64,000 nucleotides of DNA, taken from assembly GCA_029339195.1 (NCBI GenBank), contig JAPTJF010000115.1:62001-126000 (forward strand). The letters run 5' to 3'. Positions 39,585 to 60,286 of this stretch are shown here, piece by piece. Position numbers and translations under genes: made by a program. Under the pieces are notes generated by a model. The model saw only the letters and a list, made by a program, of their open reading frames with translations. It did no database searches and was not told the origin of the DNA. How positions within the stretch are numbered: position 1 is the stretch's first letter; the number at the start of each line of letters is the position of its first letter. The DNA comes from Micractinium sp. NFX-FRZ (lineage: Eukaryota; Chlorophyta; Trebouxiophyceae; Chlorellales; Chlorellaceae).

Positions 39585-42500
39585 ATGGCAGGTGGCGGCT
39601 GGCAGCACCTGGCTGGCGCCGCCAAGGAGCTGGCGGGAGGGGCACGGGCGGCGCTGGGCAAGGCAGTGGTACGTGCCGCCGCCTTGCTGTGGGCGCGCTT
39701 GTGCAGTGCTGGGCACCCAGCGTGGGATTCGTTGGTGGCAGCAGCAGATGACTGGCTTTGTTATGTTCTGGCATTGGCAGCCAGCGGATCCTGCGTGTAC
39801 CGGTCATTCAGCTGTGGTACCACACTGCTGGCGGTTCCTGCGTCGGTTGTGCCCGCCAGCCACTGCTTTCCGATGGCACAGGCTGCCTGCCCCCGCCTGC
39901 ACCTGCCTCTCATGCTCTTCCCCCGCCCGCTGCAGGCGGTGACTGGCAGGGAGGTGCGGCACATTGTGGCAAGAGAGGAGTCGCCGCCGCCTCCAGCTGG
40001 CGCTGACGGGCAGCACGTGCAGGGGCCGCAGGGCGGTGCGCAGCAGGCGGAGCAGGCACAACAGGCATTGCCACCTCAGCGCGTTGAGGACGCTTACGGC
40101 TTCAGCCTAGAGGTCACGTCAGAGCAGCTGGCCATTCTAGAGCGCTGCCGTGCGCGCGAGGAGGCCGCGCGGGCGCGGTGGCAGGCGGCACCGCGCGGAG
40201 AGGGGGGCCTGCCGGCGCCCGAGGCGCTGAAAAAGCTGTGCAGAAAGGTGGGCAGGCAGGTTGGTAGTGGATGCCGCGGGAACTGCATTGGTGCTTACTA
40301 TTATCCAGGCTCTGCGGTGCAAATGCGAGCACCAAAGCAGCAGTGTGCTGTCAGCTCTCATCCGGCTGCCAGCTCAGCATTCATGCCACGATGCTGTGGA
40401 GTTGTGACACCATGCCCTCCCTCCCACCCACCCCTACCCGGACTGCTCGCCCCACCCCATGTCCCCCACCCTGCAGGGCGTGCCGCCCGACATGCGGCGC
40501 CAGGTGTGGCTGGAGATGTCTGGAGCCAACGCGCGGCGTCAGCGCCGGCCGCCGCACCACTACGCCTCAAGCGCGCTGCAGGGCCGGGACTCGCAGTATG
40601 CACACCAAATCGAGCTGGTGTGTGTGGGAGGGACCGGGGAGGGAGCAGGGAGGGGTGTGGGCTCTGCATGTGTGTTGCAGGGGTTGGCATCAGGGGCCCG
40701 CGCGTGCCCAACAGGAGCAGAGCAGTGGGGCCAGAGCGCTAGCGAGCAGGAGCGGCAACCAAGCAGCCGGTGCAGCGCAGGTGCGCAAATTGCATTTAGA
40801 ATGGCTTTGGCAACATATCCCATGTGTGCTCAGCACCCGGACATACACGGGGTCACCACCGCCCACCTCCGTGACCGCTCCCCTCCTCTGCTGTGCGCGC
40901 CGTGCATGCAGGACGTGCCGCGCACCTTCCCCAACAACGCGTGGGTGCAGAGCCAGGCGGGGCAGGGTGCGGTGCGCAACGTGCTGCTGGCGTGCGCGCA
41001 CCACAACCCGCGGGTCGGCTAGTGAGTGGCGCAGCCAGTGCTGGCCTGCCTTGCCTGCCTGCCTGCCAGCCAACAAGCCAGCCAGCACCGTGCATGCCTG
41101 GAAGGAAGGCAGAACTTTCACCAGAAACGACCAGAGGGCAAGTGGTGTGGGTTTCCGCTGCCTGCCCACAACAGGCAGCAGGAGTAAGGGCAACATTCAT
41201 CACCCTGCCCTGCCCCTGCCCGCCATTGTGCACCTGCTATTGCCACCGACTGTTGCCTCGCCGTCCGCATTGCCTCCCCCTCGCCTGCAGCTGCCAGTCC
41301 ATGAACTATCTGGCCGCCATGCTGCTGCTGGCGCTGGGGCGGGATGAGGAGGATGCCTTCTGGGTGATGGCCTCGCTCATCGATGACGACGACGACGGTG
41401 AGGGGCGGGCGGGTGGGGAGGAATGGGGTGGGACAGCGGGCTGGCGGGCAGCGCACGCTGCGGGGTGCGCATTGGTGTTGTGCGTGCTGGGCATGCATCT
41501 GGCATGCCTGAGTGAAGAAAGGAAGTCCGCGAATCACACCCTAGCACAGTGAACCGCCATGTGTGCTTGCATGCCCACACTGCCTGTGCCCCCCCACGCC
41601 TCATCTTGAAACTCGCTCACGCCTTTGCCTGCCTGCGCCCCAGGCATCCTGTACCGCGACATGTATGCCTGCGACCTGACGGGCACCCACGTCGAGATGC
41701 GCTGCCTGCGGGAGCTGGTGGGCCACAAGCTGCCGCGGCTGGGCAGCCACATGGACGCGCTGGGGTGCGACATGTCCATCCTGGCAACAGGTGGGCAAAT
41801 GATGTCACTCTGACGACAGCTTGGGGTTGAGGGAGCCAGGCCGGCACTGCAAAGCCGGCTGCCTTCCGCCCATCCCTGCCCTGCCCTAGACCCTTGTTGA
41901 TGGTTCCTTCCGCCTCTCCTGCCCTTGCACCCAGCACGCCATGTCGTGCCTCTGCGCTGTTCCCGGTGCCATCTTCACCCCGCCCCTGCATGTTTTCCTG
42001 CCCCATCTGACTTTGCGAAATCTAAGAACACTCTGCGCTGTCCCTGCCGCCTGCAGACTGGTTCCTCTGCCTGTTCTGCACCAGCCTGCCCTCTGAGACA
42101 GCGGCGCGCGTGTGGGATGCGCTGCTGAACGAGGGCACCAAGGTGGGGCCCCGCAGTCAGGGAGGGGGCTCTTGGAGGTCTGTTGCGGTTGTGCCTCGCC
42201 GCCTGGCTGGCCAGCTGGCTTGGCTTGGCAGGGGCCCACCTGGGGCTGAAGGAAGGCACCAGGGCGGTACCCCCTGGGGCAGGCTCCAAGCGGTAGCCGC
42301 TGCACCCGGCTGGCCGACCCTCCATTCCACATTCAGATCGTGCAAGTAATTCCCACCCTCTTCGTATCTGCCTTTGCCGCAGGTGCTCTTCCGCACCGCG
42401 CTGGCCCTGCTGAAGCTGCACGAGCCGCTGCTGCTGGCGCAGGACAACCCGGGGGAGCTGCTGCGCGCGGCACGACGCGTGGCCAGCGAGGCGTATGACA

Positions 42501-43129
42501 GGGACGCGCTCATGAAGGTGGGGCGGGCACACCGTGTGCTGGACGGCCTTGAAGCACTGGTGCCTGCTGCACTCCATGCCTTGTACTACATGCCTTGTAA
42601 CAGGCTCGCACCAAACTAATTGTTTCATGGAACAGTCCAACGCACGCTCCCCATCATCTGCACCTGCCCGCAGGTGGCCTTTGAGGGGGTGGGGTCTATG
42701 CCCATGGAGCGCATCAACAACTACCGGGAGCGCAAGCAGCGGGAGGTTGACAAGGAGATGGCGGCGCGGGAGACGCGGGTGAACCTGCAGGCGGCGGTGC
42801 AGCAGCAGGGCTTTGTGCTGACGGAGCACGAGGCAGCGCTGCTGGCACGGGATGCTGGCACAGCAGCAGCAGCAGCGGAGGCGGCGGCGGCGGGAGACGC
42901 GGTGGAGCGGTCTGTGGGGGGCAGCGCCAGCAGCGGCAATGGCGGAGCGGCGCCTCGGGGCAGCAGTGCGCCCGCAGGTGTGGGCGCCAACGGCCCGCGC
43001 TGGCTGCATGCCCTGGGTGAGCGGGCAAAGGACAGCATTGACCGCGGGCGCATGAGGATTGCGCACCGGCGGGGGCAGAGCCTGGGTGCCTCGGCAGCGG
43101 CGTTTGAGGGAGCGGAGTCGGCAGCATGA
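39585..43129 (+). CDS. TBC-domain Rab GTPase-activating protein (525 aa)
   Basis: Nine exons: 39585-39668, 39936-40247, 40477-40617, 40912-41021, 41291-41397, 41644-41790, 42057-42142, 42383-42517, 42674-43129. TBC proteins speed GTP hydrolysis by Rab GTPases in membrane traffic. The domain starts GVPPDMRRQVWLEMSGA (motif A). Motif B is DVPRTFPNN with the arginine finger (Arg183), and motif C, spliced in phase, reads GYCQSMNYLAAMLLL with the glutamine finger (Gln218). ILATDWFLCLF and VWDALLNEG.KVLFRTALALL follow. Both catalytic fingers are intact, so an active GAP is expected. The C-terminal 150 residues form a charged helix (NYRERKQREVDKEMAARE) and Ala/Gly/Ser-rich sequence. The target Rab cannot be told from sequence. 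Confidence 0.93.
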
Positions 43130-43723
43130 GCGTGACCCATGACCCTCAGCGGGCCTGGCGTCTGTAGCGGCCGGCTGTGTCCCGCCCCGGGTCGCCACCG
43201 CTGCCTGTTTTGCTGTCTGTTGATCTCACGTGAGCCACTGATACTGAATCACTGTTGTGGGTTGTCATCAATCCTTTTAAGCACCGAGAAAATGGGGTAT
43301 GATGCCAGACAATGCAGGCATTCCCCCTTGGCAACTTTTGACATAAATGCATGCATGACATGCCACTGATGTCTTGCATGGGCTCATAGTTTTCTGGCAA
43401 AGGCGTGGACAGAAGGAGGCCGTGAAATGGGCCTGACATGGACAGCTAGTATTGGTCTGTATACTACTGACATGTGGGATTCCAAGCGTGCCCTGGATTT
43501 GTGCAGGATGCTGATGGAAGCAATGTGTTTATCATAAGTTGCTGCCAATCTTGTTTCAATCCTCACAGGCAGGGAAGGTGGTACAGCCGGCCCCACCCCG
43601 CCTGGCACCGGTGGCTGCCCTCTGCCAGCGTGGCCAGCAGGCCCTTGCTCACCACGGGCTTTGCACTTCCTGAATTTCGGTCTCAGACCGTCACATTGAT
43701 CGGTAGGCGGGAAGGAGGGCAGC
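43130..43723. promoter_or_regulatory. TBC gene 3' flank and promoter of the E4-E2 fusion gene
   Basis: 594 bp between two genes in the same direction. No TGTAA close to the TBC stop and no coding region found. Confidence 0.45.
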
Positions 43724-46700
43724 ATGGCCGACGAAGAGCCGCCCCCTCCAGAAGACTTCGACATGGATTGGGATGAGGACCAGGAGCTGCAGATGGCATT
43801 GATGGCGTCAATGATGGAGGTAGGTGCGAGAGCGCCCTCATTGCCCGCAGTCTACCGATCACGGGTCGTCTGATCGCCGCTCTCTGCTTTGGTGCTGCAG
43901 GCTCAGCCAGGAGAGGCGCAGCAGGAGCCTCTGCAACATGCCGGTGAGACGGGGGTGCCGAGAGCGACGCGTGAGGCCTTCGCCTTGCCTGCCTGCCGTT
44001 GCCTGCCGCCACCACCGCTCCTGCCGGGCCTGGAGCCGCTCTTGCCCGCTGTTGCGCCACGACCTGCCTGTTGCCCGCACTTTCCCTGCAGGAGCGGCTG
44101 CATCTCCGGCGCCCCAGGCACAAGCGGCAGGAGGTGCACACCTCAGCAGCAACATGCTGCAGCAGGCGCTGCAAGGCCTCCAGGCACCGGCGGGCCCAGC
44201 GCCGGCGCCGGCGCCGGCGGCAGCAGCCGTGCCGCCCGTGCAGCAGCAGCAGCAGCAGGCGGCAGTAGGTGGAGCTGTATCTGGTGCTGCGCTGCTGCAG
44301 GCGCTGCAGGGTGTGCTGGCTGCTGCGGGCGGGGCTGCAGGTGGCGGCTTTGGCGCCCCAGCGCCCGCAGCGGCCCCTGCCCCTGCACCGCAACTGGCGG
44401 CGGCAGCCGCCCCAGCACCCGCTAGGCACGGCGCAGAGCGCCACGTCATGGCCCCCAAGCCCTCCAGCCCTCCCCCATCCTGGATGAAGCAGGCCGACTG
44501 CTGGACGCTGCCGTCTAGTGCGCAGCCCACCGGCGCGCTGCTTTCCAGCGTGGCAGCCGCCGCACAGGGCGGCGCAGTGCAGGCCGCTTGCAGCAAGGTG
44601 GCGGGGCAGGCGGTGTCGCTGGGGGTGGCAGGCACACCCGCGGCTGCCAGCCTGCACCTGCCGCTGTCCCCTGCCGAGCCAGCAGGCAGCCTGCAGCTGT
44701 CGTCCGCGGCAGTGGATGCAGCCATCGGGCGGATCCCAGCTGGCGCCAGTCTGGCGCTGACGATGCAGGCCGCCTGGCTTCGTGCCGCCGAGGTGCTGGC
44801 GTCGCCAGAGGGGCAGGGTGCTGACGTGGCGGGCTGCATGCGGCTGTGGCAGGCGCGGCTGGCCAAGAGGGCGGCAGCAGTGCTGGCCACAGATGAGGAT
44901 GACGACCTGTTCTTTGCTGGGGGGAAGCACCGGGGCGCCTTCCTGCAGGCGCTGGTGAGGGTAGTGTGGGAGCGTGGTGTGCTGTTGGGGGGATGTGCGG
45001 GGGAAGGAGCGTTGGCTCCAGGAATCGTTACACCGAGGGCAGGCACTGGTGTGCCATCTTGCAGGCGCTTGGGGGCAGGAGGGACAAGTGGCGGTTGTGG
45101 AAGTGTGAGCGGGTGTGTGGGCAGTGCCCAGGCGGGGGCAGGGCACGGCGGCAGCTCAGGAGGGCGGGTGCATGGGGGCATGCATTTGTATGCGGCGGGC
45201 AAATCGCACTCCCTCCCACCTCACTGCTTCCCATCCGCGTCACTGCCCCCTCACTGCTCCCTTCACCCTCTCTCCCCCTCCCCCCGTTCGGATTCCCTCC
45301 ATTCTGTGCATTCAAACACATCCCCGCACCCACGCCCATCATTGGCACCCACACGTGCAGGAGGCCGCCTCTGTGGCCCCCGCCTTCCTCGACGCAATGC
45401 TCTCCTGCGCTGCTAGCCCAGCGGAGGTGGCCCTGTGGGAGGGGGTGCTGCGCGACTCATTTGCCGCCCTCAAGGCATTCTCCTTCCTGGCGGCCGAGAA
45501 GAGCGAGGGGGCGATGAAGAGGTGAGTCGGTGGGTGGTGTCCCGAGTGGGGGCCAGCTGGGCAGGAGGGTGGCTGGGCGGGCATACTGAGGTGCTGTTGG
45601 GCCCATCACAAGCTGCCTGGCCTCACTTGGCATCTCCATTCCCAGCCATGCCCCCAACCGCAACCCTGCATGCTCAACTTCCCTGCCCGGCAGGCTAGAC
45701 GTCGTCACGCAGTGCCCCGGCATGCGGCGCTGCCTGGCGGCGCTGCTGGCGCGTGAAGCGGCGGGCGCAGCAGGCGCACGCGGGCGTGATTTTGAGTCCC
45801 GCTCCATCCTGGCGCCCCTGCTGGCTGTCGGCACTCTGGCCACCTTTGGGCAGCGCAGCGTGCTGCCGCTCACCTTCCCGGCAAGGGAGTGCTTCATGCA
45901 GCTCAGGTGAGTGCGTGGGTGAAGTGGTGGGGACGGGGCACGCTGTGCTGTGCTGTGCTGTGCTGTGCATGCTGTGCTGGGCCCGTCTCCCTCGCTGGCG
46001 TAACGTCGTCCCGCCACTGGCCTCGCATGTAGCAAGCCTGTGAGCTGGCACTGCCGCCAGAACCACCCTCGCAAGCGCAGGCTGAATACTCCGCCATGTG
46101 GCACTCTGCACAGCCTCCACTCTGCCTTGGCACAAATTTTGCTGTCCACTGTTTGTGCTGCAGGAACTACCCCCGCAACCGCGGCGCCCAGGTGGAGTCC
46201 GAGTACTCCAGCATCCGCCGCTCCCTGCAGCGCCTGGCCACCGCGGCACACGAGATCCTGAAGCGAGTGGTCACAATGAAGGCTGGGGAGGGGCCGCTGA
46301 AGGGGCGCGAGGTGGTGCCCGCCTGGCTGGCGGCGGCGGCGGGCTCCAATGTGGCGCGGGCAGAGGCTGGGAGCTACATTGAGCGGGTGCTGAGCAACAG
46401 AACCGCCACATTCTACTCGGCCTCGTGAGTGGGACACATCGGGGTGGGGGCTGGGCGCAGAGGCAGGGCATGAGCAAGCAGGTGGGGTGCCTGCCTGCCT
46501 TCCGCCCTGCCCGCCTGTCCAACCTACCTGTCTGCCTGCCTGCACCAAACTCATCACTCCACCCCGACTCCTGTGCCTTACCTGCCCCCGTCCCGGACTG
46601 CACCCCGCCTCTCCCTTCCCTCTTCCCCCTCCCTCTTTTGCAGTGATGGATTCATGGTGGGCTGCCTGGCGGTGTGCCTGCGCTTCTGCCGCCCCTTCCT

Positions 46701-49700
46701 GGACAAGCCGGAGAAGAAGCAGGGGGCGCTGCAGGTGGGGAGAGGGGCGGGGTGTCAGCACGGGGTGACAGTGTCGGGCCGAGCGGCGGGGAGGGGCGTG
46801 AAGGGCCCGCAGGTGGGGGGCTGGCAGGTGGGGATGGTGTTACGGTGGGGACGCGGTGAGGATCCTGTACTGCTATAGATGGGGACGGAACCATCCTCCA
46901 GCTCCCCCGTGCGGTGTGCTTCCCTGCTCCTTGGCCCCTGGTGCTCCAGGGCCTGCCCTTGAGCAGAATGTGGGCCCTTCATGCTTTGTGAACACCTCTT
47001 CATTCACTTGTGCACCGTCTTGCCCCCTACCTCTGCGCAGCACCTCGACCCCACCTTCTACCTCAAGCAGCACCACCGCCTGGCAGGGGGCGCCCGCGAG
47101 CGCAGCCTGGCGGGGACCATGCTTCCGCCGGCGCCTGCAGGCAGGTTTCCCCCTCCTTCTGGGCAGTGGATCATGCAATGTCAGGCCCAGCCACGCCAAG
47201 CATATGCACTCCCCCCTACCAGGAAGATGCGTGGCAACTGCATGCTTCCGTCTTCTCCATTAAACCCTGGATCCATAAATCTGCGACATCCCCTTCCTTC
47301 GCCCTCTCTGCAGGACAGTACCCCTTCCTCTCCCCCGACCGCCCAGACAGCGAGGCGCCACACTTTGTGGCCGAGATGTTCTTTGCTACACAGGTGAGTG
47401 GTGCGCCGTGTTGCTGCTCCTTGCAGCATGGCAGGGGCCCACTGCCGACCTGACACCCTGCCTCCATCTGTCTGCCCACTTCACGTTTGCGTGCAGCACA
47501 TGTGGTGCATGTGCGCCTGCTGCCTACTGTCACTGCTGCCGCTTCATTCGCTGCCTAATGTTCCTTGCCCTCCGCTACCTGCCCCCCTGCCTGCAGCGCA
47601 TGGTGCGTGTGGGCCTGCTGCCGGCAGTGCACCGCTACCAGGCCCTGGCCAAGACTCTGAGCAGGAGCGCGGGGGAGGAGGATGAGGACATACCTTTGGA
47701 GGAGAAGGCGTGAGTGGGACGCTTGTCAACCAAGAGAGCATAGCTTTTTGTGGCAGAGGGATGTGGTTGTTTGTGGTTCTGACAGTGTTGCAGTGCCCAG
47801 AAGGGGAGGGGCACATCGACCCTGTGGAGGCGAAGGTGTGAAGCGGGGGTTGGGGTCTCGGTGCAACGACGGGCCGCCGGCCTTGGCAGCTCTGATGCGC
47901 CTGCCCGCCCCAACCTCAGCCTTCCCCTCTAAATTGTCACCCGCACCCGTCCCCTCTTCACTTTCATGATTGCCCCCGCAGCCCCACCGTGGACCAGTGG
48001 CTGCTGTTCGACGGCACCACAGCAAGTGTTGCCTACCTACGTCCCTTGAGCTCACCCCTCCTTCTCGCCCCTTCTGTGCCCTGTGTCGTCCCCGCCCGCA
48101 GCTCCACCGTGGACCAGTGGCTGCTGTACGACGGCATGAAGGCGCAGCTGCTGGACCCCGAGTTTGCCAACGACACCGTGCATCTCATGGAGCTACAGGT
48201 GGGCGCAATGTGTGGTGTCTGGCACGTCTGAAGATGATGTAGGGCGAAGTGAGTGGGGAGTATGCCAACGCCACGCACGGAGCTGCAGGTGGGTGCAGGG
48301 AAGTGGTGTTGTTGGGGCACAAATGTTTGGTTTAGCACCACTGGTGGCGGGGTGAGGTGAGTGGGGAGCTGTCAGCAAGCCTGGAGTTGACGGAGCTGCA
48401 GCCGGAGGTTGCGACACCAGTGTGTGCTTTGCACAGCACAGGCTGTTGCCGTGTCTGTTACTTGAGGGTAAGACCCAGGGAGCCCCATGCACTTCAGCCG
48501 CAGGGCTGCGCAACAGAAGCTGCCCCCATTTTCCCGATACTGTATACACCACATGCGGGTGTCCCCACCCTGCCTCCATCCCGCAGGCGCGCTGGCTGGT
48601 GGGCCTGCTTGCACGTGGGCCCGCGGCCGCCAAGGAGGCCTTCTCCCTCATCCCGGAGAGCGTGGTGCGGGACATGATGGCGTGGCTGAGGTGGGCGTGG
48701 CATCAACTTGCCTGTGGGACTGATGCAGCTGCCTGTTGAGCGTCACCAGGGGCGCTGCCCTAGGATGCACTAGGGTGAGGGTGTAGGGTTCTGGAGCCCA
48801 AGTGTGCAAGGGATGGTTGCATGGATCAGGTGGGTGTTGTGCCTCCTTGTGGGTCCCGCTGGGGCACGAGGCCCCCATCAAGGTCCTCCTGCCGTGGCCC
48901 CCTCAAGGTCCTCCTGTCGTGGGGCCCCAAGTGTTTCTGCCGCGGCCTTGCCGCACCCATGACCCTTCTGCCCTCGCCGCTTCTCCTGTCCCTCCCACAT
49001 GTGCCTCTCATGCTGCATGACTTCGCAACCTGAGCGCGTCGCCTGATCCCCATCCCACCTCATTCTTCGCAGCTTCCTGATTTACAACCAGAGCACCGAG
49101 CTGCTGGGCGGCATGGACATCAGCATCGTGGTGGCCTGCCTCACCGGCCTGCTCAAGCACACCGACATCGTCACCTCTCCACCCGTGCACAACTCGATCG
49201 TGCAGCTGCTGCTGGCCATGCTGTCGCCTCAGCTGGGCGCCCGGGGGGTGGCAGGGCGGGGCGCGCTGCGCCCGCGCCACGTGTCGCCTGCTGAGGCCGC
49301 TCTGGTCACGGCCGTGCTGGGCACCGGCGCAGCACAGGTGGGAAGGGAGGGGAGGTATCTGAGATGGCAGGGTGTGTTGCCAAGCTGCGACTGGCTCAGA
49401 TGGCAGGGGAGGGATGCTGGGCCTGGCTTGAGCGCTGCCAGATTGCCTCTTCTCGGTGATGCAAGCAAGCTGTGGAGCCCAAGCTTTGCGCCCCCAGCCC
49501 GCGTCGCCATCTGCCCGACCAGTACGCCACCCCATCCTGCCCTGCCCGCAGACCGACCTGCTGCCCGCCCTGATGGCGGCCTACAGCCATGCCGACCACG
49601 TGGTGGGGCTGGACGTGGACAAAGACCAGGTGCGCTGCGCTGCGCTGCGCTGGGCTGCGCTGTGCTGTGCTGTGCTGTGCTGTGCTGCGTTGAGCAGATC

Positions 49701-52700
49701 ATCTGCAGGCATGGACATGTCCGGGGTGCTGTGTTGTGCTGTGTTCTGTGCTGTGAACATGCACATCGACCTTTGCCATTTGGCTGCCCAATCCTCGCAT
49801 CCCCCCTTTACCCCTTTCCCTCTGCTTCCACCTCACTACGACGAATCCCAATGTGGCACACGCCAACGTTGTGCAATCCTTATCCTGCTCTCTGCATCGC
49901 AATGCTCTCAGTTGCAGTCTGACAAGCTCCACCTGCGGGGCTGCCCTGCTCAGGCAGCTGTAGCGCAAGCTAACCTAGCGCAATTGCACACCTGTCTCCA
50001 CTAATCCCCCTGCATTGTACTGCACTCTGTTGCAGTACGACAAGTTCCACCTGCGGGGCTGCATCGATGCGCTGCTCATGGAGCTGTGGAGGGACCCCGC
50101 CTGCGCCGCCTCCCTCACCGCGGCCGCCCAGGCGGGGGGCACCCTGTTTGGCGGCTTTGTGGGGGCCGTGCTCAACGACCTCATGTACCTCCTCAAGGAC
50201 TCGCTGCAGGTGGGGCAAACAATGCAACAGATCCTGCATGGGAAAGGAAGGAAAGGGAACAGGAGTGCCGTGGGCTTACGTGCCTGCCGCTTTGCTCACA
50301 CTCTGGGGTTGTGGGGGGGGCTGTGCTCCCCGGCCTTGATGCTCAGAGCCTCGCTGCAGATGGTTCAAGTACAAGTGCAAGCAGGGTGGCCTGCAGGCCG
50401 GCAGGCAGGCATGCGTACCGCCAGGCTCAGATTCCAACTTGCTGCTCTTACCTGCCTACCCTCCTGCAGCGCCTGGAGGACATCCACGCCCTGGAGGTCA
50501 GCAAGGCTGACAAGGCGCGGTGGGAGCGCGTGCCACCAAAGGAGCGGGAGGAGAAGCAGGTATGGTGGCCAACAGCAACGGACACTGTCCTCTCGTGTGT
50601 GCGTGCTTGAGGGCACGCACGCTGGCTGCCTGCTTTATGGGCATTTGCCACTCGCACTACGGGCTTCTGCACTTGAGGCCTCCTGGCCCAACCGTCATCC
50701 TGTTCTGCCCACAGCTGCCTCTCCTTCCGACCGCTTCCCCTTCCCCGCCACGCCTCAATGTGATGTGCAGGCATTCTACGAGAGCCAGCAGTCGACTACC
50801 CGCGGCTTCATGCGCATGGCGGTCTCCACCCTGGCCATGCTCAACACACTGGTGGAGAACAGCGCTGTGCGGGCGGGGTTCATGAGCGAAGGGGTGGTGG
50901 GCAAGGCGGCGGCGGCGGTGAGTCAAATCCCAACTGGATGAGAGAGGGGGGCGGGGCTTCTGCAGGAGAGGTTTCAGGAGGCAATACTGCTTACCGGGCG
51001 AGAGGGGAGGGTGGAGAAGAGCAAAACAGGGGCCAGGTTTGCGAGCGAACAACAGAGGGCCATTGGCCACGGGGCACATCCGGACTGCTGACCTGGGCTC
51101 CATGCCTTCCAGCCTGCCCTGCCCACCCTGGCTTCACCTGCCTACCCTGCACTGCCCCTCACCTTTCTATCACCCACCCTGCCCACCCCTGCTCCAGGCG
51201 GTGCACTTCATTGAGATCCTGGTGGGGCCCAAGTGCGCAGAGCTGCAGGTGCGCATCTCTGAGGTTAACAGTGTTTCAACGCCAGGGCTGGGGGAAAAGG
51301 AGGCAATTCGTTCACGCTGGAAGGCAGACGGGGGCAGGCAGTACCGCTTGCGCCTTGGCCGCCCGCTTCGTAGGTACCGCCTCGTCTGCCCGTGTGTGCG
51401 GCGCCCTGAGTAGCACCTGTTTCATGTTCTGCACTTCCCTCCAGTTTTTCACTGTTTTGCTGTGCGTATGCCCGCAGGTGGAGAACCCCGAGCAGTACCA
51501 CTTCAACCCGGACCAGCTCCTTGTCTCCATCGTCTACTTCACCGCACGCCTGGCGGAGCAGCCCGCATTCGTGCAGGCAGTCAGCGCGGTGCGTGCGTGG
51601 GGTCTGGGGCAGGGTTGGGGCAGTGTGTGTGTCACATGCAGGTGTCCAAAGGTGAACAGACAGGTGGGAGGGCGAGCTGGATGTGGGTGTGCCGTGTCCC
51701 CCCCTTCCTGTGCCACATACCTTGCAAGCTTTTTGCCGTACCATGTTCTGCCTTGGGCAGGTGCCCGACTATGATGCGAGCATCATCCAGCGGGCGGTGG
51801 ACCGCATGGCCTCCAAGCAGCTGGGAGAGTACGAGCACCGGCGGCGCCTGGAGGCACTGGCTGCAGGTGGGCACGACTGACTGATTGCAGAGGGGCAGGC
51901 TAGGCTGCTCTTGACAGCCTTCCGAAGCCTGAGGGATGATTTCAACTTCAGGACGAATTGGATGCGCTAGGTGGTAGGAGTCACGCGGGCACTGCCATGG
52001 CTGACCTGCAGCGAGGGAGTGACAGTGAGTTGATAGACTACTGACATCAGGAGGGTGCAGTGGGGGAGAGCAGGGCTTTGGGTCCCCACCAAGCAGTGGC
52101 TATGGGCATTGACACGGCGTGCACCAAGAAGGGCTGGGTGAGCCTGCATGGTCGGAGCATCCGTGTCAAGCAGGGCAGGGTCAGAGCATCAGTGCCAAGT
52201 GGCGGCAGCAGTACCGGCAAGCGGGGGGGGAGCTGGCAAGGCGCCCTGCAATGACTCCTAGCATGCCCCTGCTCCTCCCACCCCACAATCTTCCCCGCCC
52301 ATGCTGGCTCCACTCCCAACCCTGCCCCCCTGGCTGCAGCTGTGCGCCAGCTGCGTGGCGAGGGCGGCGCGGACGTGGCGGACGCTGGGGCAGACGGCGC
52401 GCGCGCGCCCCCCGACCTCTCTTTCCCCCAGGTGAGAGCAAGGCCCTGCTTTCCTAGAGGGCCAGCGGACTGTAGCCTGTACCCTGTACCCTGTACCCTG
52501 TAGCCTTAGCCTGTATCCTTTAGCCTTTCGCCGGCAGCCCAGCCTCGGCACCAGCTATTCATCCAAGTACCAGCTTGCTGCTGACCCTGGGTTCCGTCTC
52601 ATGCTGCCAAAGGTCCTCAAAACCTCGAATCCGAGTCATGAACGTGTCTTTACAGGAGGAGCCCGCTGACCTGGAGGGCGCCTATGTGGCAGCCCTGGAT

Positions 52701-55340
52701 GAGCTGGCGGTGGGCGACTTTGACTCGGAGGCGCCGCGTGCCTACAACAGGAGCTTTGCCGCCAAGGCGGAGCGGCAGGAGGGGGACACGGCAGGTGGGT
52801 GGGGTAGGTGGGTGGGGTGGAGGGGTGGACAAGGCGGTGAGAGGCAGGTGGGAGGGCGGCAAGAGTGGCGCACAGTGGGTAGCGGGAGCATGTGGTCACA
52901 GGCAAGGAGGCGTGAGCAGGCAGGAGTCGGGGGCACATTAGCAACAAGGCACGGAACTGCCTGGCAACCTCTGCCCTGAGGTGCTGTACACTGCGTCGAC
53001 CTGAAGTGCGCCCCTCCCCGCACCAGACCAACATATGCATGCGCACACTTACACCACCGCCACCGTGCAGGCAAGATGAAGGCTTTGAGCAGGGAGGTGC
53101 GCGGCTTTTCGGGGCGCACGCGGCTGCCCATCTACGCAGCCAGCTCCATCTGTGTGCGCTACGACCAGAGTGAGTGTGCCCGAGTGGACTCATGGGCACC
53201 CACTCTGTGCCCACACGCGGCTGTCTCTCCCGATGTGGCACTGTGCTGCCCACATCGGTACTCCCCCTCCCTGCCCTACATGCCCATGTCCACCACCCCA
53301 CCCCCACCCACACCTCCCCTTACCTGCCTCTGCTCCCTCCCCTCCTGCCTCCCTTCAGACCGCATGGACAAGATGCGTGCGCTGATCACAGGCCCCGAGG
53401 ACACACCCTACTACGGCGGCTGCTTCATCTTCGACGTCTACTTCCCGGGTAAGGGGCACGGACTAGCACGCAGGCTGGGGGCCGTGGGGGTGTGCATGCC
53501 GGAGGTGCGGGGCGCGCATCACTCCTCAATGGGCGCTGCATCATGTGCAATGCCTGGAGGTTCAAGTGTTGTCGCCACCAAGCAGGGCACACCACCGCCC
53601 CGCCCTCTCTTCTGCCCCTCCCTCCCGCAGGGGTACCCCAACGTGCCGCTGCTCATGCAAGTTTCGTCACAAAGAAACTCGAATCTACTCTACTCTCTTC
53701 CTGCCCCCCCCCTTCCCGCAGATGACTACCCCAATGTGCCGCCGCTCATGGAGCTGGAGACCACGGGGGGAGGGGTGGCGCGCTTCAACCCAAACCTCTA
53801 CGCAGGTGGGTGGGTGGGTGGGTGGGGGGGTGGGGGTCGAAGAGGGAGATACAGGCGCGGAGGGGGGCGGCAGTTCTGGTGGCCTGGGAGGCGGAGAAGG
53901 AGTTGGCCCGGATGTGACCTTGCGCAGTGGCCTGCGCAGGCAGGCCGTCGGCGTTGCCCTTGCCCGCCTGCCGCCTTTGCCCCCCTGACTGCGTATGTTC
54001 CGCTTTGCATGCTGCCCTTTACAGAAGAAACAAGTGCTGCCCCTAGTGGTCGAGTGAAGTCGTTGACTGAAAGGACTGAAAGTTTATATTTACAAGTTGC
54101 TTGCCCCGTGTGCCCGGCCCCGCAGACGGCAAGGTCTGCCTGTCCCTGCTGGGCACCTGGCACGGCGGCGACGAGAGCGAGAAGTGGCGCCCAGGCAGCT
54201 CCAACCTCTTCCAAGTGCTGCTCTCGCTCCAGGTTGGTGGGCGGGGGGTGCCAGCTGGCACGGGCTGCCCTGCCCTGCCGCCTGCCCTGCCGCCTGCCTG
54301 CCGCCTGCTTGTGCTGCTTGCCACACCAAACTCGAAGGGCATGGTGTATCAGCCCAGGTGTATCAGTCCACGGCAGTGTTGCCACACAACACCCGGCCTC
54401 CACAGCCTGCCCTTCTCAACTACTACATTGCCCCACATGTCTTTACTGTGCTGCTGTCTTCCCCATTCACATGTATCATTGCAGGGCATGATTTTCATCA
54501 CGGACCCTTACTTCAACGAGCCTGCATACGAGGGCATGCGGGGCACCCAGGAGGGGTCGACATCAAGCCTCAAGTACAACTCGGGTGAGAGGAAAGAGAG
54601 GGAGAGGAAGGAGGAACGGAGAGTGGGGCGGGGCGTGCGGCACGCCGCCAGAGGGGTCAACATAGAGCATAGGATCTGGCTCTGACCCGCATCTCCTGCC
54701 CTCCTGACACCTCCCCCTCGGCCCTCCTCCCCCTTCCCTCCGTCTCCGCAGAGATCTGGCTCAACTCCATCCGCTACGCCATGATCGACCAGCTGCGCCG
54801 CCCGCGGCCCGGCTTCGAGGCCGCCACGCGCGCGCACTTCCGCCTGCTGAGGTGGCGCATCATGGCGCAGTGCGGCAAGTGGCTGGAGCAGGCAACGGCG
54901 CTGGACCCGCTGTTCCAGGTACGGGGGAGGGGTGTTTTGGGGGGCTCAAGGACATGGGTTCTGCCCAGGCGAGGGAGGGAGGGAGGGAGGGGGAAGGGGA
55001 AGAGGCAGGCAGCTCTTGGGGTGAGGAGGAGGGAGGCAAAGGAGGGTGAGGTGAGGGGAGGGGTGGCAGGGAGGTTGGCTGCTCCTAGCGCCTTGAGATT
55101 TGAAGTGGGTGCTGCTGGCCGGCCGGCTGTGTAGGCAGGCGGGCGGCCGCCTTGTGTTGCAACAGGCTGTCTAGGACGTCTGCCGCACCATGCAGCAGGG
55201 CCCCAGCGCCCTCTAGCTTGCTCATTATCAACCGCCTCCCTGTTGCTGCACTGGTGGCCTCCCACGTTTCATTCTATGTGCTGCAGAAGCGCCTGCGTGA
55301 CGCTGTGGTGGAGCTGCACGGCTTGCTGGCCGCCCTGTGA
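43724..55340 (+). CDS. UIM + Ufd2/E4 core + E2 (UBC) fusion protein lacking a U-box (1391 aa)
   Basis: Twenty-nine exons, first 43724-43819, last 55287-55340; frame is kept across every junction. Residues 17-34 ([18 protein letters not shown]) fit a ubiquitin-interacting motif (Ala25, Ser29). An Ala/Pro/Gln-rich region follows. From about 335 to 1080 is the Ufd2P core of ubiquitin elongation factor E4 ([57 protein letters not shown], [13 protein letters not shown]). Where Ufd2 has its U-box there is instead a linker (52340-52794) and a UBC domain (about 1160-1330) of the BIRC6/UBE2O type: [51 protein letters not shown]. Catalytic Cys1254 is present. The linker exons 51761-51866 / 52340-52431 / 52656-52794 / 53071-53169 join in phase, which argues for one protein. 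Exon 8 uses a GC donor. Confidence 0.88.
45945..45972. repeat. Intronic (CTGTG)n repeat
   Basis: Five or so tandem CTGTG units, about 40 nt after the donor of exon 5 of the E4-E2 gene. Confidence 0.75.
47974..48015 (+). repeat. Duplicated exon head with its own 3' splice site (copy of exon 11 start)
   Basis: CCGCAG followed by a copy of CCACCGTGGACCAGTGGCTG lies exactly 120 bp before the true exon 11 start (48102). The copy drifts after about 40 nt. No stop lies between the two acceptors, so use of the upstream one would add 40 residues in frame. Confidence 0.85.
48258..48295 (+). repeat. Duplicated exon tail with donor site (copy of exon 11 end)
   Basis: GAGTATGCCAACGCCACG...GAGCTGCAG|GTGGGTGCA copies the end of exon 11 and its donor, GAGTTTGCCAACGACACC...GAGCTACAG|GTGGGCGCA, about 90 bp downstream. 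A weaker third trace (GGAGCTGCAG) is near 48393. Confidence 0.75.
49625..49690. repeat. Intronic (CTGCG/CTGTG)n repeat at a donor site
   Basis: About a dozen pentamer units begin directly at the donor of exon 14. Confidence 0.8.
49905..49955 (+). repeat. Duplicated exon head with 3' splice site (copy of exon 15 start)
   Basis: GTTGCAG, then TCTGACAAGCTCCACCTGCG copies the true exon 15 start TACGACAAGTTCCACCTGCG, 119 bp downstream. The copy soon meets a stop. Confidence 0.85.
52470..52528. repeat. Degenerate heptamer repeat (CCCTGTA-type)
   Basis: Three to four tandem copies of CCCTGTA decay into CCTTAGC and CCTTTAG units within the intron after exon 21. Confidence 0.7.
53610..53665 (+). repeat. 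Duplicated exon head with 3' splice site (copy of exon 25 start)
   Basis: CTCCCGCAG then TACCCCAACGTGCCGCTGCT copies the pyrimidine tract, acceptor and first codons of exon 25 (TACCCCAATGTGCCGCCGCT, 53722), 91 bp upstream. Using it would shift the frame in the UBC domain. Confidence 0.85.
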
Positions 55341-56122
55341 GCAGCGGATGTGCCAGCTTAGCAGGCAGGCCTGCTGGACGCGCCGGAAGCAGCAGAGGGG
55401 CGGGCTGGGGTGCCCGCAATAGCACACTGCGGCGGCGGCGCTGCCACAGCGACCTACAGCCGCTGCCGGCATGGCCCTTGCACCTGATTCCGCATCAAAC
55501 CTGTATACAATCTCCTGTGAACACACTGCATGCCTCCTCACAGCTATAGGTACGTTAGAACTGATAGCGACGCTGGGAAGCAGTACGGCGGTCGAACAAA
55601 CGTGTTGCACAGTGTGTGGGCGTGGGCTGTTGGCCGACAGGCGGCAGCGTGCATGGCGGCGGCGGCATGCCAGCTACTCCTCGCTCTCTCTTGCTGCCTC
55701 TCGCTACTCCTCGGTATTCGTCCCGCTAGCCCGCATCTCATTCAGTCGTAACGGTGATACAGGCGGGCTTTTGAACGCCTCGACGCCACTGTCGAGCGAG
55801 GTTCGCAACCAGCCGCTCGTGCACCAGGTGCGCTCTAGACAGATCATACAGCGCGGCAGCCTCCGCTTCCCGCCTGCTCACCGGCTGCCGGTCCACCTGC
55901 TGCCTCCCCCGGCTCCGCCCAGGCGCCCCCGCCAGTCCGCCCTCCCGCCTGGTCGTGTCACACCTTGCAACTCGCAACTTGCACCTTACCAGGCCACCGC
56001 TTTCCGTCTCTGAGAGTGCCTTTCGCCTCTTATCAACTGCTGCCCATCCATCCCAACTGCCCTCCTACCTTCCCTTGCACCCTGCCCGTGCGCTACTTGC
56101 GCACCGCCTCCCCGCAGGCGCC
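55341..56122. promoter_or_regulatory. E4-E2 gene 3' flank and promoter of the SAP gene
   Basis: 782 bp without a supported gene. A CCCCGCAG just before ATG 56123 may be the acceptor of a 5'-UTR intron. Confidence 0.45.
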
Positions 56123-59100
56123 ATGAGCAGCGGCAGCAGGGACGCGCCGGCTGCTGCAGCCCGGCTGGATGACCTCCCTCCAGATGTCGTGGACAGCATA
56201 GCTGAGATCCTGATTCAGCAGTGCTCCCCTCTGTTTGACCGGCACGACACGCTTCAGCTGGCGAGCACGCTCTGCATCGCTGGCGGCGCGACGTGCGCGC
56301 ACCTCGCACAGACCCTCTTTGCCTTCCTCTCGCCCCGCCTGGGTGGGTGGGTGCCTGCTGTTCCGCAGGCTTTTAATCGGGAGTTAAGGGGGCTTGGGGG
56401 CTCGCACTTGCGATGCAGGCATGCAAGGCAGGCCAACTGCGGCGACAGCTGATCCTGGACGGGCCCGGCTTGCCTTGCACCGTCCAGCGCTTCCCGCCAC
56501 ATTCTGGAAGTGCTCTGCCCTTCTGGTTTGCTGCCGCCGCTCTGCAGGCCAGGAGTTGCAGGTGTGTGAGGGGAGCAGTGTGGCAGAGCTGAAGGCCGCC
56601 TGCAAGGCCTGGGGCCTGCCTGTGGGGGGCAACAAGCAGGCGCTGCTGCGGCGGCTGACGGACCAGGTGGGGTGGGGAGGCCGCGGGGCGGTCTTGCAGA
56701 ATGACGGACTGCAAAGCAAACTCACCTGCAAGTGCTCCATGGGCGGGTGGTGAAAAGATACGGCGGTGGCGGCATATTGTGCAGGAGGACGGGCGCTCAG
56801 CATGCTTCACATGCCTGTGCTGCCAGGGGCATTCCACACTTCACGTTGCATTTGACCCAACTTCCACCTGCACGCCCGTCTCCCCTTCCCACGCCTGCCT
56901 TACTGCCTGCTTGCCCGCCCGCAGGTGCAGGACAGCGAGGTGGACGAGGAAGGCGCCCCGCCGGTGCACTGCCTTGTCAGCGGCGCCACGCGGGCGGAGC
57001 TGTCCGGCTGGCGCCAGCAGCGCATCAGCCAGAGCAAGGCCAAGGTAGCTCAGAGGGGGGGGGGGGGGGCAGGAGGGCGGGGCGCCAGAGGGCTTGAGAG
57101 CCAGTCCTACAACAAGTGGCAGAGGGGGAAATGATGCCAGGACGATGGCGCTGAGGGCACGGGAGGCACACGTGGCTGAGCGGGCGGGCGCCTCCCCGGC
57201 CGCACCCTGCCATGTGCATGTCATGTGCATGTCAGTGCTTCAGGGACACTTGGTCGACGTGCTTCCCTCGAGCTTTGACTCGGCTGTGTATTGTGTGTTC
57301 TGTCCCCCCCAGGCCTGCTGCCGCTCCCGCGCTTCCGGCCACCTGGAGCTTTTGAAACCAAGTTTCCCGCGTGGATTCCCCCCGCTGTGCGCAGGAGGTG
57401 TTTGGGCTGACAAAGGGCTGCCTGACGGGCCTGTCCCACGAGTGGCTTCACTCGGGCGGCCTGCCCACCAAGTCCTTCCTGCTGTCGGACGTCAAGCGGG
57501 AGGCGCTGCGCCGCTTCAAGTCGTGGGAGGCCATCCTGAGGAGCCGGCAGCACTCGCAGGACTTCTGCAACGAGTGAGCGGGGCGGGCTGCAAGGGGGAA
57601 AGCTGCTGGTGCTGCGTGTGCGGCAGGCATGGTGGAGTGGGAGGGCGTTTGCTGCGTGGCAGTGGCGCCTCGAGGGGATGCCATTATGTCAAGGCTGCAG
57701 TCACAGGGATGCACGCGCAGGCTTGTTCTTTGATCGGTCAGCGAGGCCTCTGGAGAGTTGAGCTAGCGGCGGTGCGGGGTGCCTGCAGCGTGGTGTCTGG
57801 TGTATTGCCGTGGCGTGCTTTCATCACGCCAGGGTGTGCATCGTGGGTGGCGTTCTTGGGCAGGCATGGTGCGCTGGTGCCTGGGCGCAACGAAATATGC
57901 GTGCATGTGCTGTGCTGCGCTGAGCCATGCTGCGTCGTGACGTGCTGTGCTGCGCTGCGCTGCCCTGCTCATGAATGAATCTTCCCGGCCGCAGGTGGCA
58001 GGCGCGCACCGACGCTCGGCGCCTGGAGCTGCGGCAGGCGCTGCTGGCGCGTGGGCACGCTGCCAGCCGGGTGGAGGCGCTCCTGGAGGCAGGGGACTCT
58101 GGCATTTTTGTGTGGTGAGCTCTCCATGGTTTGGGGGAGTGACAGGAAGAGAGGGGGGGCAGGCACTGCCAGTTCAGTGGTCGGCGCTTGCAAGGGGGCT
58201 CGGACTAGCTTGTGTGGTGAGCTTTGAATGAAGCCTCAACGGTTCACTCTGGTTGGAACTGGCCTGTGTGCAACCTGCGCTTCACATCCTTTGGAAGAAG
58301 AGTGTCAAGCAGTAGAGGAGAGCGGGGCGCCAAGCAGCCAGGTGCCGCCCCCTGCCCACACCAGCCAGCCAGCCCGCTGCCTGCCCGCCCCCCTGCCTGG
58401 CTGCACACCTTTGCTCTCTCCCTGGGCACCCATGCACGCCCCCTGCCTGCAGGGGCAACAAGAGTGACCAGCCGGTGGGCGCGGCCTGCGACAGCATTGA
58501 GCTGCACGAGTTCTCACGCTCCCAAGCCCCCGCCGACTACAGCCTGGCCCTGCGCACCGACACGTGGCAGCCGGGGCGCAGGTGGGGGGTTTTGAGTGGG
58601 AGCACAGCGTTGGAGGGCGGTGTCTTGAGGTGTGAGGCGGAAAGGAGGCGCTTGGCTGATGCTGCCGGCTGGTGCTGCCGGCAGGCCAGGCCTGTGAAAT
58701 GCTGTTACATCCAACGCCCTTGCATGGCACGTCCTGCTCACACAACACATGCCTCTGGCCCCGCGCCTTGCCCCCCGCTGCTCCCTCCCCCCACCGCCCT
58801 CCCCGGCAGCATGTCACAATACAAGGCTCAGTGGACGCTGCGTGACCGGGCGGCACGGGCAGCGCTGCCGCACTGGGCGGCCGCGCAGCCCACCCTGCAG
58901 GTCAGACGAGTGGGCCTGGTGGCTGGCTGGCTTACTGGTTGGCGGGCGGGCTGGGTGCACTGAATTTGGTGCTTGCAGTCGTCACTAACGACGCAGACCT
59001 GGCTGCGGGTGCTTGATTTCATGGGCTGTCACGCCACTCTGACGTTCCCCCGCCCGCCCTTGCATCCGGCCCGCAGGCCATCCTTGGAAACCCCCGCGTG

Positions 59101-59181
59101 CCTCGCTCGCTGCTGCCCTCGCTGGAGCAGATGTGGCAGCGGCACCAGGCGGAGGCGCAGCAGCAGCAGCAGCAGCAGTAG
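56123..59181 (+). CDS. F-box-like / SAP-domain protein (360 aa)
   Basis: Eight exons: 56123-56342, 56548-56666, 56925-57044, 57395-57573, 57995-58114, 58453-58581, 58810-58900, 59077-59181. All phases agree. The N-terminus has an F-box-like helix (LDDLPPDVVDSIAEILIQQC) and a Cys/His-containing helical region. Residues 75-112 form a SAP motif (VAELKAACKAWGLPVGGNKQALLRRL), a two-helix nucleic-acid-binding element common in chromatin and repair proteins. The rest has EVFGLTKGCLTGLSHEW, a charged helix (WQARTDARRLELRQALLARG) and an aromatic-rich stretch with no family I recognise. It ends in a Gln run from CAG repeats. A ubiquitin-ligase adaptor on DNA is one reading, but the F-box is weak and no substrate domain is identifiable. 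Confidence 0.78.
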
Positions 59182-59477
59182 GCGGGGGCATAGTAGCAGC
59201 AGCAGCAACAGCAGCCTCAAAGCTGGTAGCTCTAGCTGGTGTGTAGCAGCTGGTGTTGGAGGAGCACCGCTGTACAAGAGCTAGCTTCAGCAAGAGCCAG
59301 GAACCAGGGCACCTTGTACATTTGAAGGATTTCATTCTCTACTTCTAGCTGTGTGCCATGCTTCCGCGCTTTGTCGGCAAGAGCCACGCAACCTTGCCTG
59401 CCTGTCATGGTCTCATGCCGCACTTGCGAGGGCAGAAGGCGAGCGGGCGCCTGCGCTGAGCGCACAACCAGTCCGGG

Positions 59478-59488
59478 TGTAAATTACA
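59478..59488. terminator. Bidirectional TGTAA signal (TGTAAATTACA)
   Basis: TGTAA on + at 59478-59482 serves the SAP gene (about 300 nt after its stop). TTACA at 59484-59488 gives TGTAA on the minus strand, about 100 nt after the end of a small minus-strand frame. Confidence 0.45.
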
Positions 59489-59589
59489 CTGGTCAATGCA
59501 AAGAACGAAAGGATTCACATACTGCCATCAGATAAAGCATACATGGTAAGACATGCGATAAAGCAACGCTAGAGGCCGCCTGCCTGTGC

Positions 59590-59748
59590 TCAGTAAGAGC
59601 CCAGGCCCATCAGAAGGACTCGCGCAAAGGCCTGCCGGGCGTCCGCCGCAGCTCGCGCCGCCCGCTGCTGGAGCTGGGCCGAGAGCCGCGCCGCGCGGCC
59701 ACGACAGTCTTGAACGGTGGTGCAAATCTTGGGGAGCGGCAGCGTGGG
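59590..59748 (-). CDS. Possible small minus-strand gene or terminal exon (about 52 aa)
   Basis: From an ATG at 59748 the frame reads MPTLPLPKICTTVQDCRGRA, then an Arg/Ala-rich amphipathic helix ending VLLMGLGSY and a stop. The frame is open further upstream, so this may be the last exon of a longer gene divergent from the BAR gene. Support is indirect: helix-like composition and a TGTAA signal about 100 nt after the stop. I do not recognise the product. Confidence 0.25.
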   Translation of the reverse strand, partial: PTLPLPKICTTVQDCRGRAARLSAQLQQRAARAAADARQAFARVLLMGLGSY

Positions 59749-60286
59749 CATTTCGTGAAGCTCCAAGCCGCGATGTCCCCAATGGCGCGCGCGCTGTTGA
59801 CTGGGCGCTGGCTTGTGCAAGCCGGAAATTGACTTCGCCCCGGGGAGTGGATGTAGAATTGAACGAAAGAAAGGGGCTGCGTCTCCGTGAGCGGTATGCC
59901 CCTGCCACACGTGCTACAGGTCAGCGCGGCGGCGGCGCTGTTTGAGGCGGTGCTGAGTGGCAGCCTGTACAGCCTCTTCACGCTCTACTCGTGCCCAATC
60001 GTCCCTGTATCAATCCGACAGCCTCGCTAAGAAGAAGAGCATTCGAGGAAGGCACTCTACTGGCGCCGTGCTTCAGTCGAGTGTGCTCCTGCTAGCACAC
60101 TTTCCCACCCAAGGCCAGAACCAGCAAACTGTGCTGAGACTCTGCACAGCGCCTCGAATCGCCAGCCAGCAACCTCGCCGCCACCTCCCACACAACCTCG
60201 TCAGCTGCCAACCCGCGTCCCCTCCAAAGGGCCGGCCACAAACCCCCGCTTACTTTGAGCGCCCCAGGCCGCCTCGCCAAGCAACC

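Follow-up and report, generated by a model that had tools for sequence, protein, structure and literature searches.

The window (the whole 64,000-nt stretch of Micractinium sp. NFX-FRZ DNA that was analysed, from a 66-Mb assembly of 838 contigs) carries on its plus strand a gene in which the scaffold of a Ufd2-type E4 and a BIRC6-type ubiquitin-conjugating (E2) domain are encoded in one reading frame. The frame runs from the ATG at 43724 to the TGA at 55338-55340 and its features, in plus-strand coordinates of the window, are the following.

43724..55340, plus strand: E4-E2 fusion gene, 29 exons spliced by hand into one frame, 1391 amino acids
43772..43819, plus strand: UIM-like motif, residues 17-32 (16 residues), by pattern match
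45854..52344, plus strand: Ufd2P core, residues 442-1083, exons 5-21 (Pfam PF10408, E 1.1e-101)
51867..52339, plus strand: intron 20 (473 nt), separating the last core exon from the linker exon
52340..52431, plus strand: linker exon 21 (VRQLRGEGG...PPDLSFPQ), matched in the relatives P0001 and P0002
52656..55340, plus strand: BIRC6-type E2 (extended UBC) region, residues 1113-1391, exons 22-29
53157-54529, plus strand: UQ_con core within the E2 region
54137..54139, plus strand: codon of the catalytic Cys1254, located by alignment with relatives

Twenty-seven introns are GT-AG and one, after 47140, is GC-AG; this GC-AG donor, at exon 8, agrees with the sequences of the relatives. In a Pfam scan of the full spliced protein UQ_con falls at residues 1188-1300 (E 8.1e-22) and Ufd2P_core is the only domain above the cut-off N-terminal to the E2. 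The catalytic cysteine lies in DGKVCLSLL and is Cys1254, just as a sequence-only reading of this DNA had stated. Introns 10 and 14 contain near-copies of the acceptor site and the first bases of the following exon (47975-48016 and 48095-48136, 95%; 49892-49944 and 50010-50062, 85%), which resemble duplicated exon starts, either decayed or alternative. The green-algal poly(A) signal TGTAA has just two plus-strand occurrences from 41000 to 60000, at 42596 and 59478, and is uninformative here.

That the E4, linker and E2 parts form a single in-frame product, as first proposed from the sequence alone, is borne out by two relatives. P0001 is a 932-aa protein from a contig of 3076 nt and P0002 a 1004-aa protein from a contig of 3270 nt. 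P0001 aligns with the fusion protein over 932 residues (884 identical, 4 gap columns) and P0002 over 1003 residues (821 identical, 4 gap columns). We infer that both contigs derive from spliced RNA, because they leave no space for the 24 or 25 introns of the gene. Both proteins run from core through linker to E2 over the junctions 51866/52340, 52431/52656 and 52794/53071, in agreement with the modelled exons 21 (the linker), 22 and 23; they support the exon junctions from exon 5 onwards, exons 1-4 with the UIM-like motif being outside their coverage. It might be argued that the gene model alone has merged an E4 gene lacking a U-box with an adjacent E2 gene, since intron 20 has an in-frame stop ending 14 nt from its start and, as read by eye, exon 22 is preceded at a distance of 18 nt by an in-frame ATG. 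The intron-free contigs of P0001 and P0002, however, continue across the same junctions, the open reading frame of an MMETSP transcript (P0050) holds both the Ufd2P core and the E2, and most homologues (see below) have both domains. We have rejected the two-gene reading, which is scarcely credible. Intron 20 is the longest intron of the gene, and its in-frame stop (51878-51880) would terminate an unspliced, E4-only form, exon 20 read-through stopping after GGHD at 51880. The locus might on these grounds yield two products, the fusion and an intron-20-retaining E4-only form that acts as a regulator or client trap; the relatives P0001 and P0002 are spliced, however, and we hold this to be very improbable.

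The Ufd2 similarity of the single-gene product extends beyond the Pfam core. In a profile-profile alignment it spans columns 86-949 of the 1071 columns of the canonical Ufd2 profile, so that the N-terminal Ufd2 region upstream of the core is present and the similarity ends before the U-box. The predicted structure of P0001 aligns to residues 232-879 of yeast Ufd2 (PDB code: 3m62_A). The AlphaFold2 pTM values, 0.90 for P0001 and 0.79 for P0048, suggest that the E2 has a defined placing on the scaffold, pTM being an indirect guide to docking. In yeast Ufd2, N-terminal loops bind K29-linked chains and K48 branches are added (PMC5303827); by analogy, the scaffold half of the fusion may itself contribute to binding the acceptor. 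PDB entries 9khs and 9kht are Ufd2/Ubc4/K29 structures.

The U-box is the part of Ufd2 that recruits a separate E2. None was found between the core and the C-terminal end, in line with the earlier claim. Pfam detects no U-box in the spliced fusion protein, and a canonical algal Ufd2 profile that matches the U-boxes on contigs C452 and C92 has no U-box match in the window, although its sensitivity at the fusion gene is limited, as it recognises only three stretches of the gene's own core. With the same profile, and the same limited sensitivity, the interval from 51866 to 53071 was searched for an overlooked U-box exon, and none was found. A genome-wide U-box search returned none on contig C115; the same search also overlooked the U-box on C452, because introns split it. 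The absence is more strongly supported by P0001 and P0002, since these proteins go from core to E2 without a U-box. Among the 79 proteins fetched, none combines a U-box with an E2 (by Pfam and an E2 profile).

The E2 half is nearest to that of BIRC6 and then to that of UBE2O. The label "BIRC6/UBE2O-type" given to it earlier is thus to be corrected towards BIRC6: this likeness stands, while that to UBE2O is lower. It has the extended UBC fold with the catalytic cysteine in NPNLY-x-DGKVC that marks the BIRC6 type. In an alignment of 63 E2 sequences (P0010, P0013, P0015, P0017 and P0054, with short or partial E2 matches, were omitted) the cysteine and the oxyanion asparagine are present in all 41 chlorophyte-type fusions (window protein included), all nine other fusions and all 13 non-fusion E2s. 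A separate alignment, A2, has the cysteine in 50 of 51 sequences; only P0010 lacks it, apparently through a frame error. The catalytic residues are in themselves no proof of chain extension, because non-fusion BIRC6-type E2s share them. A search for the ThiF domain (E1-type) gave 13 matches.

A separate U-box Ufd2, which had been suggested as a thing to look for, is present in the same genome. It lies on the minus strand of C452, in pieces that match canonical profile columns 4 to 981, some weakly, and are spread over loci L029, L028 and L034, the last of which contains the U-box. Its exons are 38-92% identical to Micractinium conductrix, most of them above 60%. A further Ufd2-type U-box was seen at C92:5414-5626 on the minus strand (locus L030); in the 9.9 kb examined around it, the only trace of a Ufd2 core is a weak match to columns 872-952. 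This U-box is not part of the C452 gene, which has its own. The canonical protein raises the alternative that the fused E2 cooperates with the separate U-box Ufd2, for instance by scaffold pairing, and delivers its ubiquitin under the other protein's U-box. The title of 9kht refers to a dimeric conformation of yeast Ufd2, which would suit such pairing. The principal contact of UBE2D with RING and U-box domains is Phe62; the aligned position is Asn in the window protein and Phe in none of the 63 E2s, so a normal U-box contact is unlikely. In Chlamydomonas, Ufd2 is listed as Cre09.g398350, and at high lead the fusion gene and Ufd2 are both up (last-column values 3.62 and 4.55; PMC7838096), as cooperating partners might be. 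On balance, we regard such cooperation as distinctly unlikely.

The N-terminal UIM of the sequence-only reading is retained in weakened form, as a UIM-like motif. Residues 17-32 match the UIM consensus and a UIM search pattern, and a similar N-terminal motif occurs in full-length relatives; the Pfam UIM model, however, has no match in the fusion protein at E <= 1. Within the first 200 residues the pattern is found in 15 of the 45 chlorophyte-type fusions (window protein included), in none of 13 canonical Ufd2s and in 7 of 1100 shuffled 200-residue N-termini (N-termini only, not whole chains, were shuffled). It is present in 14 of the 17 fusions that match the core profile from position 5 or before, a choice that is partly circular because the core profile itself contains the motif. 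The 30 chlorophyte-type members in which it is missing include the Chlamydomonas protein P0040; some are fragments or perhaps have a misplaced start. In a second group of fusions the pattern occurs elsewhere in the chain in seven of ten members (P0045, P0047, P0048, P0049, P0052, P0053 and P0054). In P0048 it falls within a low-confidence stretch of the model, 277-337, ahead of a long helix. P0053 (1454 aa) has, besides the Ufd2P core and the E2, an N-terminal UBA-like domain, which is a possible further ubiquitin-binding addition.

The architecture is not peculiar to Micractinium. A homologue search gave 66 proteins at E <= 0.001 among the 7988 candidates sharing most words with the query; the query held the E2, and the result is not a census. 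Both Pfam domains, Ufd2P_core and UQ_con, occur in 51 of the 66; four have the core alone and 11 the E2 alone. Three of the four core-only proteins have a partial E2 by the E2 profile, which brings the count to 54 when partial E2s are included. A profile search with 18 fusions yielded at least nine matches. Fusions occur in Myrmecia, Nannochloris, Trebouxia, Bryopsis, Elliptochloris, Scenedesmus, Haematococcus, Sanguina, Pleodorina, Volvox, Chlamydomonas and Astrephomene, and the codes Botrbrau1 and Ulvmu1 point to members from Botryococcus and Ulva. They occur also in Aureococcus and Chrysophaeum, both pelagophytes. A search with canonical Ufd2 returned 13 proteins, 12 of them with a U-box and none with an E2. 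One Micractinium conductrix protein, P0072 (1535 aa), combines Ufd2 core, U-box and kinase domains, possibly because its gene model has joined two neighbouring genes.

In a tree of the 63 E2 rows the 41 chlorophyte-type fusion E2s lie on one side of a branch (91/97, not starred); in the best tree the second group stands apart from them, while a clade of all fusions is still allowed (p-AU 0.272). The core tree was built from 41 rows selected from the set (30 fusions and 11 canonical Ufd2s), was rooted at the midpoint and held no canonical Ufd2s from the second group's own lineages. One branch (100) separates the 30 fusions from the 11 canonical Ufd2s, with SH-aLRT values of 100 for the canonical algal Ufd2s and 99 for the chlorophyte fusions. 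The second group appears in two places in this tree, four of its rows adjoining the canonical side of the midpoint root. The fusions of green algae and some ochrophytes possibly stem from one ancient fusion.

The structural side of the original proposal is upheld: one gene encodes a UIM-like motif, a Ufd2 scaffold and an E2 at the place of the U-box, and a separate Ufd2 exists. By sequence, the fusion is conserved and its catalytic centre intact, and no U-box was found. We propose, with a probability of roughly 55%, that the protein is a single-chain E4-E2 hybrid, a Ufd2/UBE4 paralogue that has a BIRC6-type E2 in place of the U-box and extends ubiquitin chains. E1 would load ubiquitin onto Cys1254; the N-terminal UIM, and probably also the Ufd2 scaffold, would grip a client that already bears ubiquitin; the docked E2 would then hand its ubiquitin to a lysine of the client's ubiquitin. 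The chain would in this way be extended or branched without another E2 or a U-box, and the fusion would work alongside the cell's U-box Ufd2 rather than replace it. Client binding with chain extension by the protein's own E2 fits the catalytic residues and the partly recurring UIM-like motif. Charging, docking, ubiquitin binding and chain building are activities that we infer, as are the linkage type and independence from other ligases.

The affinities of the E2 would also suit an E3-independent E2 of the UBE2O or BIRC6 kind, in which the scaffold binds the client or Cdc48-type partners and the client receives mono- or multi-monoubiquitination with no chain extension; PDB entry names describe BIRC6 as a dual E2/E3 and UBE2O as an E3-independent E2. 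The core has also diverged more than the E2, which is the more similar part to the window protein in all 18 relatives compared (chosen from the set), a higher similarity that is expected of a working domain. Set against this are the retention of most of the Ufd2 body and the UIM-like patterns, which lie at two positions in the two fusion groups and are missing from the canonical Ufd2s, and which fit ubiquitin-bearing clients better. We consider this alternative rather unlikely. There is also a broader and tentative view, to which we would give somewhat less than even odds. The Ufd2 scaffold would be an independent clamp that grips ubiquitin-bearing clients and accepts any donor module; green algae and some ochrophytes would have joined it, possibly in one ancient fusion and with UIMs at two places, to a BIRC6-type E2. 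The result would be a single protein that extends or branches chains without an E3.

The claim that no enzyme with the order UIM-E4-E2 has been described holds in the literature searched. Some of the homologues that share the architecture are named "UBC core domain-containing protein". We found no description of a fusion of a Ufd2 core with an E2 in the full texts searched (supplements and most subscription papers fell outside the search), nor in the available parts of PMC6548493, PMC7838096, PMC4378952, PMC4327156, PMC10959754 and PMC5303827. As far as searched, the parts are known and their order is new to print. The fusion allows one to ask whether the acceptor chain is held by the scaffold itself or whether the scaffold does no more than position an E2 bound to the U-box.

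Among known systems, the Chlamydomonas reinhardtii protein CHLRE_12g510300v5 (P0040; Cre12.g510300, "Ubc21") has the same two domains in the same order; it differs from the window protein in lacking the UIM by pattern, although its start may be misplaced. In the accessible part of PMC7838096 it is given only as a PF00179 E2. The presence of the gene in Chlamydomonas makes genetics and biochemistry feasible. With the E4 ligases Ufd2, UBE4A, UBE4B and plant PUB1-type proteins (PF10408 and PF04564), of which Ufd2 is the founding E4, the fusion shares the Ufd2P core; it differs from them in having no detected U-box, an E2 domain instead and an N-terminal UIM-like motif. UBE2O belongs to the same wider group of E2s and is less similar to the fusion E2 than is BIRC6; the UBE2O-type models PF23043/44/46, which the UBE2O-like P0066 carries, are absent N-terminal to the UBC in the Pfam scan of the fusion protein. 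BIRC6 (BRUCE/Apollon) has a similar UBC domain, and the same scan lists no BIR domain in the fusion, whose E2 sits on a Ufd2 scaffold. With the fusion, the self-sufficient E2s, such as BIRC6 and UBE2O, gain one more kind of scaffold.
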